Of a stretch of DNA of 23,400 nt, positions 3,584-23,384 are shown piece by piece. Positions within the stretch are counted from its first letter, which is position 1, and each line of letters opens with the position of its first letter. The stretch is taken from IMG/VR virus record IMGVR_UViG_3300048036_000455, positions 1 through 23,400 of that record; one strand, written 5' to 3'. The notes beneath the pieces were generated by a model that saw only the letters and a program-made list of their open reading frames with translations, was not told where the DNA came from and did no database searches. Both the position numbers and the translations under genes were made by a program. The DNA comes from a virus.

Positions 3584-4354
3584 ATGCGCTTACTAGCAGC
3601 AATGCTAGCATTCGCCTTATCAACTGTGGCGTTTGCTCAAAACCAATTAAACATGTCTCCAGGGGCGACTGATATCGGTACAGATATCTACGATCTTCAT
3701 ATGCTTATCCTATGGATTTGCATCATCATCGGGCTTCTTGTTTTCGGAGTAATGTTCTACTCTATCATTTTTCATCGTCATGATAAAGGCTATAAACCTT
3801 CGCACTTCCATGAACATACTGGTGTAGAGATTGCTTGGACCGTTGTACCATTCTTAATATTAATAGGAATGGCAGTCCCAGCGACATCAACACTGCTCGA
3901 CATCTATGATACTGAAGATGCAGAAATCGACATACTGATTACTGGTTATCAATGGAAATGGAAATACGAATATCTCGATAGCGAAGGTGAAAACATTTCA
4001 TTCTTTTCAAACCTTGCTACAGCTCAAGAAGAAATCTATAACACGGTCGAGAAAGAAAGTGATTACTTACTCGATGTAGATGAAGCAATGGTGATACCAG
4101 AAAATACAAAAGTACGTTTGCTCGTAACTGCTAATGATGTTATCCATTCATGGTGGGTACCTGAGATTAGTGTTAAACGAGATGCTATTCCTGGCTTTAT
4201 TAATGAAGCATGGACTAAGGTACCAAATCAAGGAATTTATAGAGGGCAGTGCACCGAGCTATGTGGTGCGTATCACGGATTCATGCCTATTGAAGTACAC
4301 GTAGTCAGTCAAGAAGAATATGACGCGTGGAAAGCATCGAAGAAAGGAGCATAA
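3584..4354 (+). CDS. coxB: cytochrome c oxidase subunit II (CuA subunit)
   Basis: A 256-residue subunit II of an aa3-type oxidase, which receives electrons from cytochrome c through the binuclear CuA centre. It has a signal peptide (residues 1-19, ending AFAQ), two membrane helices (about 40-62 and 82-104, with TGVEIAWTVVP before the second) and a periplasmic cupredoxin domain. CuA ligands are complete: His188 (VIHSWW), Cys223, Glu225, Cys227, His231 and Met234 in GQCTELCGAYHGFMP. The aromatic docking patch GYQWKWKYEY (121-130) is present. There is no C-terminal cytochrome c domain. The stop is 1 base before the CoxA start, with the AAAGGAG for CoxA inside this gene. The ribosome binding site is weak. 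Nothing suggests decay. Confidence 0.97.
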   Translation: MRLLAAMLAFALSTVAFAQNQLNMSPGATDIGTDIYDLHMLILWICIIIGLLVFGVMFYSIIFHRHDKGYKPSHFHEHTGVEIAWTVVPFLILIGMAVPATSTLLDIYDTEDAEIDILITGYQWKWKYEYLDSEGENISFFSNLATAQEEIYNTVEKESDYLLDVDEAMVIPENTKVRLLVTANDVIHSWWVPEISVKRDAIPGFINEAWTKVPNQGIYRGQCTELCGAYHGFMPIEVHVVSQEEYDAWKASKKGA

Positions 4355-4355
4355 C

Positions 4356-5930
4356 ATGGGAAGTCATGCATTACCGAATACAAATTTAAATCGTTGGTTA
4401 AGTACAACTAACCATAAAGATATCGGAGCCATGTATCTTTGGTTCTCATTTGCTATGTTTTTGATGGGCGGATTCTTTGCCATGGTCATTCGAGCTGAGC
4501 TCTTCCAGCCCGGCATGCAACTCGTGGACCCTAACTTCTTTAACCAAATGACTACTATGCACGGACTGGTGATGGTGTTCGGAGCGATTATGCCGGCTTT
4601 CGTAGGGCTTGCAAACTGGCTGATACCAGTTATGATCGGAGCTCCGGATATGGCTCTACCACGTATGAATAACTTTAGTTTTTGGATATTGCCACCGGCA
4701 TTCTTAATGCTAGCTTCGACGTTGTTTATGGAAGGAGGAGCTCCCGCGTTCGGGTGGACGGCGTACGCGCCTCTGAGTACGACCTATGCTCCGCCATCTG
4801 TAACTTTCTTTATATTCGCTGTACACATATTAGGTGCTTCATCGATTATGGGAAGTATTAATATCATTGCTACAATTATGAATATGCGAGCTCCAGGCAT
4901 GACTTATATGAAGATGCCTATGTTTGTATGGACTTGGTTAATTACCGCGTTCCTACTTGTTGCAGTGATGCCAGTTCTAGCTGGTGCCGTGACTATGATG
5001 TTAATGGATATCCACTTTAATACGAGCTTCTTCTCTGCAGCCGGTGGTGGTGATCCAGTACTATATCAACATATCTTCTGGTTCTTTGGTCACCCCGAAG
5101 TTTACATTATTATTCTACCTGCATTTGGTGTGATATCAGAAATCGTTCCTACATTCTCACGTAAGCCTTTATTCGGTTATGCATCAATGGTCTATGCGAC
5201 AGCAGCTATTGCATTCATGTCATTTATAGTATGGGCTCACCACATGTACACAGTCGGAATGCCAGTTGCTGGTGAGTTATTCTTTATGTATGCTACCATG
5301 CTTATTGCCGTACCTACTGGAGTAAAGGTATTCAACTGGGTAACAACAATGTGGCGTGGTGCATTAAGCTTTGAAACACCTATGCTTTTTGCTATAGGAT
5401 TCTTAGTCCTATTTACGATCGGTGGATTCTCAGGACTCATGTTATCGATTGCTCCTGCTGACTTTCAATATCACGACACATACTTTGTAGTTGCTCACTT
5501 CCACTATGTAATGGTAGCCGGTGCAGTGTTCTCGTTAACTGCAGGCATTTATTATTGGTTACCTAAAATGTGTGGGCGGATGTATAATGAGACAATGGGT
5601 AAGGTACACTTCTGGGTATCGTTCATCGGATTCAATATTACATTCTTCCCTCAACACTTTGTCGGATTAGCAGGAATGCCACGACGAGTACCTGACTACG
5701 CATTACAATTTGCTGACTTCAATATGATGTCATCGATCGGTGCATTTATTTACGGATCTTCTCAACTCATATTCCTATATAATGTAGTAGCAACAATTGT
5801 TGCAGGTAAAGTTGACAACAGAGAAAAGACTTGGGACGGTGCACATGGACTTGAATGGACTCTTCCAACGCCGGCTCCTTATCATACATTCGAAGTACCA
5901 CCAACAATAAAGGAAACTCAGCCAGCATGA
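4356..5930 (+). CDS. coxA: cytochrome c oxidase subunit I (heme a/a3-CuB catalytic subunit)
   Basis: A 524-residue catalytic subunit of an A-type proton-pumping oxidase with about 12 membrane helices. I chose ATG 4356 because AAAGGAG (4344-4349) lies 6 bases upstream and the protein then begins like the family; a GTG/ATG-like extension to 4320 would lie inside CoxB. Heme a ligands: His69 (TTMHG) and His383; heme a3 ligand: His381 (VVAHFHYVM); CuB ligands: His246, His295 and His296, with the cross-linked Tyr250 and proton-gating Glu248 in FFGHPEVY. The K-channel Lys324 (PTGVKVF) and D-channel Asp98 are present. The C-terminal DGAHGLEWTLPTPAPYHTFE resembles gammaproteobacterial CoxA. It overlaps CtaG by 4 bases. 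All residues needed for oxygen reduction and pumping are seen; subunit III is not in the window. Confidence 0.98.
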   Translation: MGSHALPNTNLNRWLSTTNHKDIGAMYLWFSFAMFLMGGFFAMVIRAELFQPGMQLVDPNFFNQMTTMHGLVMVFGAIMPAFVGLANWLIPVMIGAPDMALPRMNNFSFWILPPAFLMLASTLFMEGGAPAFGWTAYAPLSTTYAPPSVTFFIFAVHILGASSIMGSINIIATIMNMRAPGMTYMKMPMFVWTWLITAFLLVAVMPVLAGAVTMMLMDIHFNTSFFSAAGGGDPVLYQHIFWFFGHPEVYIIILPAFGVISEIVPTFSRKPLFGYASMVYATAAIAFMSFIVWAHHMYTVGMPVAGELFFMYATMLIAVPTGVKVFNWVTTMWRGALSFETPMLFAIGFLVLFTIGGFSGLMLSIAPADFQYHDTYFVVAHFHYVMVAGAVFSLTAGIYYWLPKMCGRMYNETMGKVHFWVSFIGFNITFFPQHFVGLAGMPRRVPDYALQFADFNMMSSIGAFIYGSSQLIFLYNVVATIVAGKVDNREKTWDGAHGLEWTLPTPAPYHTFEVPPTIKETQPA

Positions 5931-6472
5931 GATTCTCAAAGATCTTCGATGACGAAATAAACGATACTGTTGCTAAGCTCTTAATACTGACATGTATTAT
6001 GGGCGCATCAGTATTCTTTATAATGATTCCCTTATATGATGTTCTATGTGATGCATTGGGAATCAACGGAAAAACAGCAGACACTGCTTACATTACGACA
6101 ACTACTGAAGTTGACATAAATAGAAATGTTGAAATACAGTTTGTTACGCAAAACAATGCTGAAATGCCTTGGTCCTTTGAGCCTTCAACTACTATTGTTT
6201 CGGTAAACCCTGGTGCACTTAATGATACTTTCTTTATTGCAGCTAACGAAACGAATAAGTATATGGTAGGACAAGCAATACCAAGCGTCTCACCATCGAG
6301 AGCAGCTCAGTATTTTCATAAGACTGAATGCTTTTGTTTTGTGTCTCAACCACTTAATGCAGGTGAACGTGTTGACATGCCTTTACGTTATATAGTCGAT
6401 CAAGACTTACCACAAGACATAAAGACAATCACGCTATCCTATACTTTATTTGATGTAACAGGAGATTTATAA
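5927..6472 (+). CDS. ctaG: cytochrome c oxidase assembly protein CtaG/Cox11 (copper chaperone)
   Basis: A 181-residue membrane-anchored copper chaperone that delivers copper to the CuB site of CoxA. ATG 5927 overlaps the CoxA stop (ATGA); a start further upstream would only extend into CoxA. One N-terminal membrane helix (about 17-38) leads into the PLYDVLC motif (Cys41), followed by the periplasmic immunoglobulin-like domain with the copper-binding CFCF motif (Cys135, Cys137) and QPLNAGERVDMP. Length matches the family. Order CoxB-CoxA-CtaG is as in many proteobacterial operons except that CoxIII and the heme a synthesis genes are absent. A maturation factor carried with the enzyme suggests the phage needs a working, newly assembled oxidase. 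Confidence 0.95.
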   Translation: MRFSKIFDDEINDTVAKLLILTCIMGASVFFIMIPLYDVLCDALGINGKTADTAYITTTTEVDINRNVEIQFVTQNNAEMPWSFEPSTTIVSVNPGALNDTFFIAANETNKYMVGQAIPSVSPSRAAQYFHKTECFCFVSQPLNAGERVDMPLRYIVDQDLPQDIKTITLSYTLFDVTGDL

Positions 6473-12712: not shown

Positions 12713-13270
12713 GTGAACGTAGCAGGAATAGATTATAGTTTAACAAGCCCAGCAGTCTGTGTACATAGCGGTGATTCGTGGAGCTACGACAATTGTAGCT
12801 TCCACTTTTTTAAGACAAAGAAAATCGTAAGCACTTATCCTTTTATCGGATACGATTACCCTGAATGGGATTGCGATCAGAAAAGATACGAAAACCTTTC
12901 GGCATGGACTTTGGACGTATTATTTTATAGTAATGTAACAAAAGCTTTTATTGAAGGATATGCATTTGGTGCCGTAGGCCGAGTCTTTAATATTGCTGAA
13001 AACGGTGGTTATTTGAAACAACGGCTTTGGCTTTGTGGTATTGAGCAGGACACGGTTCCTCCTACCGTAATTAAAAAGTTCGCAACAGGTAAAGGTAACT
13101 CTAGTAAAGAAGCAATGTATGAATCATTCGTAGAAGAAACTGGTGTTAATGTCTTTGCTAGTCTCGATATACCAGACTCAAAGAATTGGAATCCAGTATC
13201 AGATATCGTAGATGCTTACTATATAGCAAAGCATGGATTTGAAAATGAATTACAACGTCTCAATTTATAG
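12713..13270 (+). CDS. RuvC-like Holliday junction resolvase/endonuclease
   Basis: A 185-residue RNase H-fold protein beginning MNVAGIDYSLTSPAV with the first acidic residue of a RuvC-type active site (Asp7), followed by AFIEGYAFGA (second acidic) and SDIVDAYYIAKHG (C-terminal acidic). GTG 12713 has GGAG 7 bases upstream. T4-like phages usually use gp49 endonuclease VII for junctions; marine relatives often carry RuvC-like proteins. It would resolve branched phage DNA before packaging. It overlaps the SdhB start by 26 bases. Confidence 0.74.
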   Translation: MNVAGIDYSLTSPAVCVHSGDSWSYDNCSFHFFKTKKIVSTYPFIGYDYPEWDCDQKRYENLSAWTLDVLFYSNVTKAFIEGYAFGAVGRVFNIAENGGYLKQRLWLCGIEQDTVPPTVIKKFATGKGNSSKEAMYESFVEETGVNVFASLDIPDSKNWNPVSDIVDAYYIAKHGFENELQRLNL

Positions 13271-13952
13271 GTACAACCCAGAAACAGACACAGCGCCATA
13301 TATGCAGGACTTTGATTTTGAAATCAAAGAAGGTTCTGATATGATGGTGCTCGATGTGATGATTGCTCTTAAAGAAGAGCATGGTGACTTAACGTTCCGT
13401 CGTTCATGCCGAGAAGGAGTTTGTGGATCTGATGGTGTAAACATTAATGGAAAGAATGGACTTGCTTGCATTACACCGGTCTCGTCTTTGAAAGGTAAAA
13501 AGATTACTATTCGTCCGCTTCCTGGGTTACCTGTTGTACGAGACTTAGTGGTTGACATGGCTGATTTTTATGCGGCTTATGAAAAGATCAATCCATTTTT
13601 ACAAAACAATACTCCTACTATGGGAATCGAAAGACTCCAAACACCAGAAGATCGAGCCAAACTCGATGGATTATATGAGTGTATCATGTGTGCATGTTGT
13701 AGTACAGCTTGCCCATCCTTTTGGTGGAATCCAGATAAATTCTTAGGCCCTCAGGCATTACTAGCGAGCGCTAGGTTCCTACTCGACAGTCGAGATCTTG
13801 CAACCGAGGAAAGGTTACAGGAACTCGATGATCCGTTTAGTGTATTCCGTTGCCACGGTATTATGAACTGCGTTAATGTATGCCCGAAAGGACTCAACCC
13901 AACAAAAGCCATTGGCCACATCAAGTCAATGCTATTAGAAAGAGGTATGTAA
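13245..13952 (+). CDS. sdhB: succinate dehydrogenase iron-sulfur subunit
   Basis: A 235-residue, full-length complex II subunit that carries electrons from the flavoprotein SdhA to ubiquinone through three clusters. [2Fe-2S] site: Cys55, Cys60, Asp63, Cys75 in SCREGVCGSDG and NGLAC. [4Fe-4S] and [3Fe-4S] sites: Cys146, Cys149, Cys152, Cys156 (CIMCACCSTACP) and Cys203, Cys209, Cys213 (CHGIMNCVNVCPKG), with quinone-site Trp161. Spacing equals E. coli SdhB; Asp63 in place of a fourth Cys is the gamma/betaproteobacterial form. ATG 13245 lies inside the RuvC-like gene. SdhA, SdhC and SdhD are not in the window, so it must assemble with host partners. It shows no sign of decay. Confidence 0.96.
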   Translation: MNYNVSIYRYNPETDTAPYMQDFDFEIKEGSDMMVLDVMIALKEEHGDLTFRRSCREGVCGSDGVNINGKNGLACITPVSSLKGKKITIRPLPGLPVVRDLVVDMADFYAAYEKINPFLQNNTPTMGIERLQTPEDRAKLDGLYECIMCACCSTACPSFWWNPDKFLGPQALLASARFLLDSRDLATEERLQELDDPFSVFRCHGIMNCVNVCPKGLNPTKAIGHIKSMLLERGM

Positions 13953-16405: not shown

Positions 16406-17269
16406 ATGGCTATTTTAGTTGACTATAATCAGGTAATGCTGGCCAGTCTCTTCGCAGGGATTGGTAATCACACCGACATGGACGTAGATGAAAATCTTCT
16501 GCGTCACATGTTCCTTAACTCAATTCGATCCAATCGTAAGAAGTTTCACAATGAATATGGTGAGATCATCATATGCGTAGACAACAAAGATGTCTGGCGC
16601 CGAGATTACTTCCCTTACTATAAAGCGAATCGTAAAAAATCTCGAGACGAGTCTGAACTCGATTGGAATAAGTTGTTCGAATCGATTCATCGTATCCGTT
16701 CTGAGATCGACGAGTTCTTCCCATACAAAGTAATCAGTGTAGATCGTTGCGAAGCCGATGACATCATTGGTACTATCATTCATGAGGTAGGTACTGATCT
16801 GAACATGGGATCTGAAAAGTATCTCATCTTATCTGGTGACAAAGACTTTATTCAGCTTCACACATATGCTAATGTAGATCAATACAATCCAGTTATGAAA
16901 AAGTGGGTTCGTAGTGACAACCCAGATAAATATCTCGATGAACATGTGTTGAAAGGTGATGTTGGTGACGGAGTACCGAATATTCTAAGCAGCGACAACT
17001 GTTTAGCTATCGGTGAACGACAGCGACCAATGACTAAGAAGCGTATCACTGCTTTCTTAGGTGATCCTGAAGGCTCTATGGATGAAGAAACAAAGTTAAG
17101 ATATAATCGAAACAAGAAAATGATTGATCTTTCTCAGATACCTTCCGAATACAAAGAACGAGTTCTTGAGCAATTCAACATCGAGAAGGATATTGGTCGT
17201 GAACATCTGTTCAACTTCTTCGTAAAGAAAAAGCTCAAGAATCTTATTACTGACATACAGGATTTTTAA
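16406..17269 (+). CDS. 5'-3' exonuclease / RNase H (T4 Rnh-like flap nuclease)
   Basis: A 287-residue PIN/FEN-family nuclease that removes RNA primers and 5' flaps during replication. Metal-binding acidic motifs appear in order: ILVDYNQ (Asp6), IICVDNKDVWRRDYFPYYKA with the basic helix after it, DRCEADDIIGTI, ILSGDKDF and the helix-hairpin LKGDVGDGVPNIL. Length is close to T4 Rnh (about 305). It begins 30 bases after promoter P3 and is followed one base later by another gene. Confidence 0.9.
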   Translation: MAILVDYNQVMLASLFAGIGNHTDMDVDENLLRHMFLNSIRSNRKKFHNEYGEIIICVDNKDVWRRDYFPYYKANRKKSRDESELDWNKLFESIHRIRSEIDEFFPYKVISVDRCEADDIIGTIIHEVGTDLNMGSEKYLILSGDKDFIQLHTYANVDQYNPVMKKWVRSDNPDKYLDEHVLKGDVGDGVPNILSSDNCLAIGERQRPMTKKRITAFLGDPEGSMDEETKLRYNRNKKMIDLSQIPSEYKERVLEQFNIEKDIGREHLFNFFVKKKLKNLITDIQDF

Positions 17270-18775: not shown

Positions 18776-18814
18776 CTGTTGTTTCTCTTTGATATCGGAT
18801 TAAGGAGGTTGCAT

Positions 18815-19564
18815 ATGTCAAAAACACGTCGATTAACCAGTAAGGAAAAAAGACGCAGAGATCGTGAACAAGGAACGCTTAATTCCAAATTTAGCATGCG
18901 AAAACTCGGACCTATAACAACAACACAGGAGGATATGTTTGATCAATACAAATCAGGCTATAACTTAGCTGCAATTGGTACGGCAGGAACTGGTAAAACA
19001 ATGTGTGCTATGTATTTAGCATTACAGGATGTTTTAAAAGAAGTAGGATATGAGAGAGTCATCATAGTCCGTTCTGCAGTCCAAACGCGAGAACAGGGAT
19101 TCATGCCCGGTTCACAAGCTCAAAAGGAAGCGGTATACGCGACACCTTATGCTGATATTGTAAATGATCTATTTGGTCGAGGAGACGCTTGGGAAATTAT
19201 GAAACAAAAGCGTCAAGTGCAGTTCATGACGTCTTCATTCGTTAGAGGTTTGACGTTTGACAACGCAGTAATCGTTGTAGATGAATGCCAATCTATGACA
19301 TATCACGAGCTTGATAGCATTATCACTCGTGTAGGAGAGTCTTCTAAAATTATATTTTGCGGAGACACAAGACAAGATGATTTAGCTGGAACCAGACATA
19401 AACACGATGTCTCAGGTCTCGTAAGCTTTATCAACGTACTAAAACGTATTCCTTCATTCAGTTTAGTAAACTTTGGAGTCGAGGATATTGTTCGCTCAGG
19501 CCTCGTAAAGGAATACATCATTGCTAAAGAACGGTTTGAATCTAAGCTTTCAGCCGTAGCATAA
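18815..19564 (+). CDS. phoH: PhoH-like ATPase
   Basis: A 249-residue P-loop NTPase of the PhoH family, common in marine phages. Start ATG 18815 is set by AAGGAGG (18802-18808) 6 bases upstream. A basic N-terminus (about 1-20) precedes the ATPase domain with Walker A GTAGTGKT (55-62), RSAVQTREQGFMPGS, Walker B VIVVDECQSM and the sensor region IIFCGDTRQDD. The family is thought to act on RNA, often with a nuclease. It has been used as a marker of marine phages. Confidence 0.93.
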   Translation: MSKTRRLTSKEKRRRDREQGTLNSKFSMRKLGPITTTQEDMFDQYKSGYNLAAIGTAGTGKTMCAMYLALQDVLKEVGYERVIIVRSAVQTREQGFMPGSQAQKEAVYATPYADIVNDLFGRGDAWEIMKQKRQVQFMTSSFVRGLTFDNAVIVVDECQSMTYHELDSIITRVGESSKIIFCGDTRQDDLAGTRHKHDVSGLVSFINVLKRIPSFSLVNFGVEDIVRSGLVKEYIIAKERFESKLSAVA

Positions 19565-19974: not shown

Positions 19975-20661
19975 ATGTTTACCCATGCAGACCATGGTAT
20001 TGATCTACCAACCTTAACACGCAAGACGACAGAAGCTGGACGTCGTTACTTTACTCCCACCGGCGAAGCCTATCCCTCAGTTACAACCGTTCTTGGTATC
20101 CTTGGTAAGAAGGAACTAATGGAATGGCGTAAGCGAGTAGGTGAAGATAAAGCCAACCAAATCTCAAGACAAGCCGCAGGCCGTGGTACCGCAGTTCATA
20201 AACTCTGCGAAGACTACATTGATAATAAAGAAGACTATTCTAAAAAGCACATGCCTGCAAACATTCATATGTTTAACACCATGAAACCTCTACTCGATGA
20301 AAAGATAAATAATATATGGTTCCAGGAGTGTTTCCTCTATAGTGATGAACTTCAGACCGCAGGTCAAGTAGACTGTATCGCTGAGTTCGAAGGTGAGTTA
20401 TCAGTCATTGATTTCAAAACCTCACGTAGACTTAAAAGTCCTGATAAGATCCAGAATTACTTTATGCAGGTTTCTTTCTATGCAAAAGCATTCGAAGAGC
20501 GTACAGGAACTCCTATCCGTAAAGGTGTAGTCCTTATTGGAGTAGATGATTCCGAGCCTCAGGTCTTTGTTATCGACACTGAGGAATACATTGAACACTT
20601 TAAAGCTGTAAGGGAGGCATACAAAAACCTCTATGAAAAAGACAAGGTACATAATAGTTGA
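19975..20661 (+). CDS. PD-(D/E)XK (RecB/Cas4-like) exonuclease
   Basis: A 228-residue nuclease. It has the RecB-type helix GRGTAVHKLCEDYI, then AGQVDCIAEFEGELSVIDFKTSRR, which supplies the catalytic D-x(n)-(D/E)-x-K residues, and a C-terminal QVSFYAKAFEERTG like the Q-x3-Y motif of this family. No iron-sulfur cysteine cluster is seen, so it is not Cas4 proper. Roles in phage recombination or host DNA degradation fit. Preceded by promoter P4 and tandem repeats. Confidence 0.88.
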   Translation: MFTHADHGIDLPTLTRKTTEAGRRYFTPTGEAYPSVTTVLGILGKKELMEWRKRVGEDKANQISRQAAGRGTAVHKLCEDYIDNKEDYSKKHMPANIHMFNTMKPLLDEKINNIWFQECFLYSDELQTAGQVDCIAEFEGELSVIDFKTSRRLKSPDKIQNYFMQVSFYAKAFEERTGTPIRKGVVLIGVDDSEPQVFVIDTEEYIEHFKAVREAYKNLYEKDKVHNS

Positions 20662-20986
20662 TGATAGGATGGGTGTATTCTTAGGAACATACTCGGGCAG
20701 TGATCTAGGTAAAACAGACGAAGATAAATTGTATGCCTGTTTTGCTGCTAACAATCCTTTCGGTCTAACATCAGCATGCTCTTTCACGGATTCATATATT
20801 GCTTTGGAATATATAAGTGACACATTCGCGCCCAATAAGCGTAACTATCTAAATATTTTAGAAGTAGAGTCTGAGTCAGAATATCCAGATGTGATCGACA
20901 TTATTAAAGCCGGTCATTCAGAGTATACACATGATATGCTGGATGAACTATTCCACGAAGAAATCGAAAATCCGACGATCCACTAA
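20633..20986 (+). CDS. hypothetical protein
   Basis: A 117-residue acidic protein overlapping the nuclease gene by 29 bases, with AGGGAGG at 20611-20617 as a distant SD. Segments such as YIIVDDRMGVFLGTYSG and ACFAANNPFGLTSAC suggest a small alpha-beta domain. No family recognised. Confidence 0.6.
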   Translation: MKKTRYIIVDDRMGVFLGTYSGSDLGKTDEDKLYACFAANNPFGLTSACSFTDSYIALEYISDTFAPNKRNYLNILEVESESEYPDVIDIIKAGHSEYTHDMLDELFHEEIENPTIH

Positions 20987-21507
20987 TGAATGATAAAAAA
21001 CTAGTTAATGACGCGCTCATGTTTGCTATCAATGCACATGGAGATCAGCGTAGAAAATATACAGGTGAGCCTTACATTGTTCATCCTGTAGGTGTAGCTA
21101 AGATAGTTGAGACTGTTGAGCATACGCCCAGCATGATAGCTGCTGCTTTGTTACATGATGTAGTAGAAGATTGTAATGTAACCATCGATGAAATATGTGA
21201 CCAATTTGGACCTAAGATTGGCATGTATGTTCATTACTGTACCAATGTATCCGAAAAGAAAGATGGCAACCGAGCCTTCCGAAAAAAGATGGATGCAGAC
21301 CACTTCGCTCTGGGGCCAGCCGAGTCTCAGACAATCAAAGTTGCTGATATGATGTTTAACGTCTCATCAGTTGTCCGATACGACCAAAAATTCTTTCATT
21401 CCAAGTTTAAGTTCGAGAAGCAGTACATGCTCAACATTCTCACAAAAGCAGACGTAACCTTATTACATCAGGCACAGGAGATGTTGGACGCAAATTGGGA
21501 ACAGTAG
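20986..21507 (+). CDS. small alarmone hydrolase (HD domain, RelA/SpoT-type)
   Basis: A 173-residue HD hydrolase that would remove pyrophosphate from (p)ppGpp. Motifs follow SpoT/Mesh1: NAHGDQRRKYTGEPYIVHP (His33), ALLHDVVED (His57-Asp58, Glu61-Asp62) and IKVADMMFNVSS (Asp121, Asn125). The synthetase, TGS and ACT domains are absent, so it is hydrolase-only. It starts one base inside the previous stop (TAATG). During infection it could lift the stringent response and keep transcription and metabolism running. Other HD nucleotide substrates are possible. Confidence 0.85.
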   Translation: MNDKKLVNDALMFAINAHGDQRRKYTGEPYIVHPVGVAKIVETVEHTPSMIAAALLHDVVEDCNVTIDEICDQFGPKIGMYVHYCTNVSEKKDGNRAFRKKMDADHFALGPAESQTIKVADMMFNVSSVVRYDQKFFHSKFKFEKQYMLNILTKADVTLLHQAQEMLDANWEQ

Positions 21508-22430: not shown

Positions 22431-23384
22431 ATGCATGAATTAGAAATTATCAACAACGAAGCTCAAATGGCTTACCGCTTATCTTCTGGTGTGCCTTGGC
22501 ACGGTATGGGTACTCCTGTCGAAGACGACATGACTCCTCGTGAAATGATGAAAGCTGCTGGTCTTGACTGGACAGTTTCTCTCAAAGATTCTTACATCGA
22601 CATCGATGGTGAGCAGGTTAAAACTGGTCAGCAAACATTGATTCGTGACACTGACAAGAAGATCCTTACTAATGTCGGTGGAAACTGGAATCCTTGCCAA
22701 AACACTGAAGCTTTCGACTTCTTCAACGATTTCGTTAAAGCTGGTGATATGGTAATGGATACCGCTGGTTCGCTTAAAGACGGACAAATTGTCTTCGCTG
22801 CTGCTGACGTTCGAGATGGATTCGAGCTTTTCGGTGGTGATGAAGTCAAAGGTTACCTCTTGTTTTCAAACCCTCATCGCTACGGCAAAAGTATTGATGT
22901 AAAGTTTGTTATGACTCGAGTGGTATGTAACAATACACTTTCGATGGCATTGACAGAAAAAGGTCAGCCTGCAATACGTGTCTCTCACCGTAATCAGTTC
23001 GATGCTGAAGCGGTAAAAACTGCTCTTGGAATCTCTCATAATCGAATTGAGCAATTCAAAGAAGCTGCTGCATTCCTAGGCAAGAAGCGTTATACCGATG
23101 AGTCTTTCAAGCAATTCCTTGGACAAATCTTTGGTACTTCTTCTCAGGAACACAGGACACTCAGCCGAACTGCTGAACGTGCCTTCGAGATTGTAGATAC
23201 TCAACCAGGTGCTGACTTTGCACGAGGTTCTTGGTGGAACGCTTATAACGCAGTGACTTACTTGACTGACCATGAACTTGGTCGATCAGCCGATGCTCGA
23301 GCTACTTCAGCTTGGTTCGGAGTCAACGCTAAGCGTAAACTTGATGCTCTTGACCTTGCGGTTGAGATGGCAGAGGTAGCGTAA
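22431..23384 (+). CDS. DUF932 / phage-plasmid-like protein (TIGR03299 type)
   Basis: A 317-residue protein with the DUF932 pattern: N-terminal LSSGVPWHGMGTPVEDDMTP, then WTVSLKDSYI, VGGNWNPCQNTEAFDFFNDF, FVMTRVVCNNTLSMAL and KAAFLGK-like region EAAAFLGKKRYTD, with ARGSWWNAYNAVTYLTDHELG near the end. The family occurs in phages and plasmids and its biochemical role is not settled to my knowledge. It has its own promoter, leader and terminator, making a single-gene unit with probably high expression. The TAA stop sits in the terminator loop. Confidence 0.88.
   Translation: MHELEIINNEAQMAYRLSSGVPWHGMGTPVEDDMTPREMMKAAGLDWTVSLKDSYIDIDGEQVKTGQQTLIRDTDKKILTNVGGNWNPCQNTEAFDFFNDFVKAGDMVMDTAGSLKDGQIVFAAADVRDGFELFGGDEVKGYLLFSNPHRYGKSIDVKFVMTRVVCNNTLSMALTEKGQPAIRVSHRNQFDAEAVKTALGISHNRIEQFKEAAAFLGKKRYTDESFKQFLGQIFGTSSQEHRTLSRTAERAFEIVDTQPGADFARGSWWNAYNAVTYLTDHELGRSADARATSAWFGVNAKRKLDALDLAVEMAEVA

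Follow-up and report, generated by a model that had tools for sequence, protein, structure and literature searches.

A predicted small alarmone hydrolase in the conserved replication-type gene block of a T4-like phage lineage

The window analysed here, 23,400 nucleotides of the virus record IMGVR_UViG_3300048036_000455 (positions 1 to 23,400), encodes at 20986-21507 on the + strand a 173-aa protein with a single HD domain. From its sequence and modelled fold, the product is predicted to be a hydrolase-only small alarmone hydrolase (SAH). This phage SAH is real and conserved, and it is probably active. According to our best explanation, to which we give a probability of roughly 0.6, it is a phage/PaSpo-like SAH removing host (p)ppGpp during infection, independently of the respiratory genes that the phage also carries. 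We regard the finding as solid and as a modest surprise: an uncultured T4-like lineage has fixed a hydrolase-only alarmone enzyme in its conserved block.

The SAH gene starts at an ATG whose first base is also the final base of the stop codon closing the ORF before it (20633-20986). Its product matches Pfam HD_4 (1.1e-15, 58.2 bits for a cut-off of 27.2) and PHROG 990, 'metal-dependent phosphohydrolase' (1.6e-28). It also matches TIGR00691 spoT_relA (2.2e-23), covering only profile positions 1-121 of 687, which are the hydrolase part; the score, 82.5 bits, falls far under the family cut-off of 499 because the protein is one domain. SpoT-type motifs are found in QRRKYTGEPYIVHP, ALLHDVVED and IKVAD..FN. 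When the PDB was searched by profile (E <= 0.001), only RSH/SAH-type or HD-domain chains were obtained, and the PDB sequence matches were likewise Rel, SpoT, MESH1, SAH and other HD-domain chains. A SpoT-type HD protein had been noticed at this place in the first-pass annotation, and HD_4, PHROG 990 and TIGR00691 bear out its position, length and type of motifs. The same annotation had it that no synthetase is present. In agreement with this, the RelA_SpoT synthetase domain (PF04607) was found in 0/33 records, namely the 23.4-kb record and 32 relatives that are 15 kb or longer, all of them fragments, and the 173-aa single-domain protein does not have the long RSH architecture of synthetase plus TGS/ACT.

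Catalytic positions were mapped by aligning the 173-aa protein to a Rel chain, all codons lying on the + strand. R23-K24 (21052-21057) correspond to Rel R44/K45 in HD1, H33 (21082-21084) to H53, H57-D58 (21154-21159) to the HD pair H77/D78, E61-D62 (21166-21171) to the ED pair E81/D82, D121 (21346-21348) to D144 and N125 (21358-21360) to N148; H33 and D121 are metal ligands by homology. We take Rel R44, K45, H53, H77, D78, E81, D82, D144 and N148 to be hydrolase-site residues. None of the nine positions varies in any of the 49 distinct viral sequences (86 rows), nor in a second, broader set with 42 viral rows (42/42). Next to N125, the phenylalanine F124 is private to this SAH (1/42 viral rows), the others having H, S, D or A; since column 124 varies among viral SAHs, residue 124 is not catalytic. 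By homology, a single metal ion would be held by H33, H57, D58 and D121, and this metal, together with the E61-D62 pair, would hydrolyse the 3'-pyrophosphate of (p)ppNpp nucleotides.

Further information was obtained from an AlphaFold2 model built on a 36-sequence alignment (pLDDT 96.5). Foldseek returned 44 matches to the model at E <= 0.001, and every one of them was MESH1, SAH, Rel/SpoT, lmo0812 or a (p)ppApp hydrolase. Using VIA-align, the model superimposed on human MESH1 with Z 24.2 and an rmsd of 1.8 A over 168 of 173 residues, on the SAHs of Pseudomonas, Corynebacterium and Leptospira with Z 21.6-22.9, and on the (p)ppApp hydrolase of B. caccae (7smg) with Z 18.7, while non-RSH HD hydrolases scored lower (YpgQ, Z 12.9; HDDC2, about 9). 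We assign the protein as an SAH because it combines HD family membership, a predicted MESH1/SAH fold and the catalytic residues with the absence of a synthetase. The earlier description of a phage hydrolase-only alarmone enzyme is thus upheld as a prediction, given the complete active site, the modelled SAH fold, the missing synthetase and a phage contig.

A fold match on its own, including those to 7smg or MESH1, does not fix the substrate of the modelled SAH, and other activities have to be weighed. The best structural matches of the model are human MESH1 structures, one of them a complex with NADPH, and the enzyme might then act as a MESH1-like phosphatase that turns NADPH into NADH. The bacterial XccSAH is reported to do so and to alter NADH levels in vivo; however, its kcat/Km is given there as about 1000-fold in favour of alarmones (PMC9765508), and SAHMex is reported to have shown no NADPH cleavage in another assay (PMC7644958). 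Since enzymes of one fold may differ in substrate, we consider an NADPH phosphatase very improbable. The same very low weight goes to the proposal that the protein acts on some other nucleotide, such as dNTPs or a cyclic signal, or that it is a dead enzyme. Its precedent is cyanophage MazG, also a phage enzyme once proposed for ppGpp degradation, which presumably is not an HD protein and belongs to a different fold family; this difference speaks against the precedent. MazG is reported to prefer dGTP/dCTP and was shown not to hydrolyse (p)ppGpp (PMC6850273). The conservation of all catalytic positions of the SAH and the far lower Z of the non-RSH hydrolase YpgQ also argue against another substrate.

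Close relatives of the SAH were found in 94 viral stretches, and broader relatives, among the matches listed, in 497 of 599 stretches. Matches also occur in 257 of 50,697 annotated phage records, whose hosts include Rhizobium, Pseudomonas, Erwinia, Escherichia and Salmonella. The SAH is under purifying selection, which argues against a dead enzyme. In comparisons with 19 viral relatives, synonymous differences have reached saturation (pS 0.75-0.92) at a pN of 0.145-0.244, and the median dN/dS is 0.085 in the unsaturated pairs (19/190). In a tree of 53 rows, the SAH of this record falls within a viral clade, and seven host SpoT HD domains form a separate clade (100/99 support). BLAST puts the SAH at about 32% identity to host SpoT over 126 aa, reaching 45% over shorter stretches, compared with 40-42% over 149-165 aa for other SAHs. 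A recent capture from host SpoT is ruled out by the tree split and by this lower identity. Moreover, a close SAH (E <= 1e-15) was found in only 5 of 194 host genomes of the same order, three of them at 42-43% identity and one in a 770-aa frame. By BLAST, the closest functionally tested phage relative among those compared is SSU5 PaSpo, and no supported clade joins the two in the 53-row tree. The SAH thus appears closest, by sequence, to the phage/PaSpo-like group, the tree giving no supported clade with SSU5 PaSpo itself.

The SAH belongs to a stable replication-type block of a T4-like lineage. We compared 83 SAH loci taken at +-8 kb or less, and for this reason the counts that follow are lower bounds. 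The block, entirely on the + strand, includes a T4 RNase H-type exonuclease (16406-17269; at least 68/83 loci), a PhoH-like ATPase (18779-19564; at least 78/83), a PD-(D/E)XK exonuclease of PHROG 298 (19975-20661; at least 80/83) and, downstream of the SAH, a DUF932 protein of PHROG 1221 (22431-23384; at least 61/83). Directly upstream of the SAH lies o117 (20633-20986), a 117-aa protein of unknown function that is present in at least 80 of the 83 loci, on the same strand in 80/80. The region 13.9-23.4 kb of the record is collinear with many phage contigs. One contig, L003, is 99.9% identical, and its record has T4-type tail sheath, tail tube, portal, prohead protease and major head genes. Consequently, as the block is common to T4-like contigs and the L003 record carries these structural genes, we consider the virus a T4-like phage. 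A chimera of two phages was rejected, as the relatives G007 and G016 keep the order ALAS-AOX-...-dNMP kinase-RNase H and have the SAH further downstream in the same orientation.

The o117 protein carries the motifs MGVFLGTY and ACF..NNPF.LT, and it gave no match in Pfam, PHROG or PADLOC. That o117 and the SAH form a toxin-antitoxin pair was considered and rejected, there being no PF04607 in the record and no family match for o117. The setting of an ATfaRel-type antitoxin was not found either: PF04607 is missing from all 33 records, and the SAH neighbours are PhoH, an exonuclease and o117. The two proteins may have a partnership of another kind.

The presumed host was approached through CoxA, which is 84-89% identical to that of Luminiphilus and other marine Halieaceae, at the top of the 80 matches listed. 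This identity points to the probable donor of the cargo, and less surely, coming from one cargo gene, to Halieaceae as the host. From the CoxA matches we picked 24 genomes, mostly Halieaceae, as the presumed host family. A RelA_SpoT synthetase domain is present in 24/24, and 38 of its 39 matches lie in frames of 704-875 aa; the remaining one, of 171 aa, is in a genome where the HD_4 match is split too. The HD_4 matches in these genomes are in long frames, except in G085, where the match is split, and for two weak matches (259 and 263 aa). Thus, the usual alarmone source, long RelA/SpoT, is present in all 24 genomes, and no small alarmone synthetase was found among them. With long RSHs there and no small synthetase, (p)ppGpp is the evident substrate and a toxSAS is not evident.

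We hypothesize that, during infection, the most likely substrate of the SAH would be the (p)ppGpp that RelA/SpoT of the host produce. The resulting drop in alarmone would let phage replication draw on the transcription, translation and nucleotide synthesis of the host, and the SAH, as a stable part of the replication-type block, would do its work independently of the respiratory cargo. Family, fold, catalytic residues, purifying selection, gene block and the long RSHs of the host family were all computed, and from them we infer the activity, the substrate and the benefit to the phage. As the SAH is fixed in a conserved block, alarmone removal may be routine in the takeover of the cell by these phages.

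Some published observations count against this proposal. Among 67 P. putida phages infecting cells without (p)ppGpp, about half are reported to do better and half worse or the same (PMC12814882), a mixed effect that counts against the assumed benefit. SAHs are also described as differing in base specificity, Mesh1 cleaving A as well as G alarmones, SAHMex (p)ppApp alone and RelSeq (p)ppGpp alone (PMC7644958); this range, from (p)ppGpp-only via dual to (p)ppApp-only, counts against fixing (p)ppGpp as the substrate. In addition, the role tested for SSU5 PaSpo is reported to be the neutralisation of toxSAS, which includes taking a 3' modification off tRNA (PMC11559606). Such a role differs from the stringent response and so counts against the removal of (p)ppGpp.

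The last observation leads to the main rival, a counter-defence function, which we hold to be possible though unlikely. The SAH would then undo the products of toxic small synthetases, through (p)ppApp or the pyrophosphate on tRNA 3'-CCA, and a toxSAS/CapRel-type defence would fail. It is in keeping with this that SSU5 PaSpo, a relative of this SAH, reverses the tRNA modification made by FaRel2 (PMC11559606) and was co-expressed to permit CapRel purification (PMC9712102). FaRel is also reported to be neutralised by the SAHs of PVP-SE1 and SSU5 (PMC7644958, citing Jimmy et al.), and jumbo-phage HD alarmone enzymes have been predicted to be counter-nucleotide defences (PMC7824862). However, small synthetase frames are absent from 24/24 genomes of the presumed host family and none of the six proteins tested matched PADLOC, while the wide and stable presence of the SAH in one lineage equally fits a housekeeping target. 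We prefer the removal of host (p)ppGpp.

Phage SAHs are already known from many phages, and this SAH is one more. SSU5 PaSpo (SSU5_099, AFL47026.1), from a Salmonella phage, is likewise a phage single-domain SAH, with 41.6% identity over 149 aa. It has the catalytic residues and the GNR..R motif in common with the SAH described here, and neither has an attached synthetase. SSU5 PaSpo is ~40 aa longer, mostly at the C-terminus, and its SAH activity has been tested, whereas ours is predicted. The HD-alarmone phosphodiesterases of jumbo phages (e.g. 201phi2-1 gp325) are also phage SAHs, at 41% identity, but from another phage lineage. Jumbo phages are reported to encode HD alarmone enzymes (PMC7824862), and an SAH is annotated in Pseudomonas phage Adele (PMC12846349). 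Among the matches listed in the literature on phage SAHs, phage respiratory genes and marine-phage SpoT-type genes, there was no publication on the SAH of this T4-like lineage.

Cellular homologues are more distant. MESH1/HDDC3 (3nr1, 5vxa, 9chy, 3nqw), a eukaryotic (metazoan) protein, shares the modelled fold over 168/173 residues (rmsd 1.8-2.2 A) and, by homology, has the metal and ED residues alike, but its identity to this SAH is 23-26%. The bacterial SAHs of P. aeruginosa (6yvc, 6z3n), C. glutamicum (RelH; 7qoc, 7qod), Leptospira (7qoe) and B. caccae (7smg) have the SAH fold as well (Z 18.7-22.9), with 21-27% identity, and substrates differ among known SAHs. The HD domains of long RSHs (host SpoT and Rel; 7qpr, 6s2t, 8acu, 1vj7) are homologous hydrolase domains at about 30% identity. 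Their catalytic positions are those of this SAH except K24, where the host SpoTs shown have R; this SAH differs from them by the absence of synthetase and regulatory domains and by a one-residue insertion, RKYTG against RK-SG.

The respiratory genes of the record are the end of an ALA synthase gene, AOX, CoxB, CoxA, CtaG and SdhB, and this cargo is a more unusual feature of the record than the SAH. The ALA synthase (5-aminolevulinate synthase, ALAS) gene end and the AOX gene that follows it occupy 20-1211, a pair also present in G007 and G016. Adjoining AOX is the gene of a 356-aa protein (1208-2278), 62% identical in G007 and 51% in G016, which gave no PHROG match and whose N-terminus looks membrane-bound by eye. 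Genes for subunits II and I of cytochrome c oxidase (CoxB, CoxA) and for an assembly protein (CtaG) form a cassette at 3584-6472, and SdhB, the iron-sulphur subunit of succinate dehydrogenase, is encoded at 13233-13952. SdhB is present in G007 (83%) and in phage C48C1 (77%), and the collinear part of G016 showed none; no other Sdh subunit was found among the scanned proteins of the record. The collinear G007 has ALAS, AOX, SdhB and SAH but no COX1, and in it o72 is followed by a methyltransferase within about 450 bases, in the place occupied here by the 3-kb cox cassette. As G007 has the SAH and not the cassette, the cassette is a cargo insertion into a backbone that already had the SAH.

It is tempting to propose, as the first-pass annotation did, that the SAH is coupled to the respiratory genes and sustains respiration and rRNA synthesis in a starving host. 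Both kinds of gene are in one phage, and in two other contigs AOX and SAH are on the same strand, with AOX 17-18 kb upstream. However, only 2 of the 32 SAH records that are 15 kb or longer carry AOX, and COX1 was found in none. As AOX lies within 20 kb upstream of the SAH in this record and in two AOX-carrying relatives, this limit was chosen for a stricter comparison, and among the 12 SAH records that extend 20 kb or more upstream of the SAH, AOX is present in 2 and missing from 10. Conversely, HD_4 is present in only 4 of 30 AOX/Cox records, and four of those without it are 98-170 kb long. Most SAH records have neither AOX nor COX1; the SAH and the respiratory genes thus do not travel together, and the data give no support to a joint function. 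Adjacency to these genes is not evidence of one, because within the lineage the SAH occurs more widely than the cargo. The earlier statement that the SAH 'complements the respiratory genes' is not supported, on these counts, on the place of the SAH in a conserved block and on the insertion of the cox cassette, which is absent from a collinear relative with the SAH. We consider such a coupling quite improbable, and the distribution of the SAH corrects a tempting story of respiration-linked alarmone control. We give the smallest credence of all to a broader version, in which the SAH would also, or mainly, be an NADPH phosphatase that converts biosynthetic NADPH of the host into respiratory NADH along with alarmone silencing, joined to the ALAS, AOX, SdhB and cytochrome c oxidase core of the phage. 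If true, one enzyme would join alarmone control to a phage-remodelled respiratory chain.

More divergent SAHs (44-58% identity) were also observed in the AOX-carrying phage contigs L163-L165 (records G052, G048 and G040), where they have no o117 neighbour. A close CoxA was found in just one further viral contig (L082, 92%). Close relatives of AOX are present in 207 viral stretches, yet in only 1 of 50,697 annotated phage records. In this sole annotated record, phage C48C1, AOX is flanked by the genes for the sliding clamp and the clamp loader.
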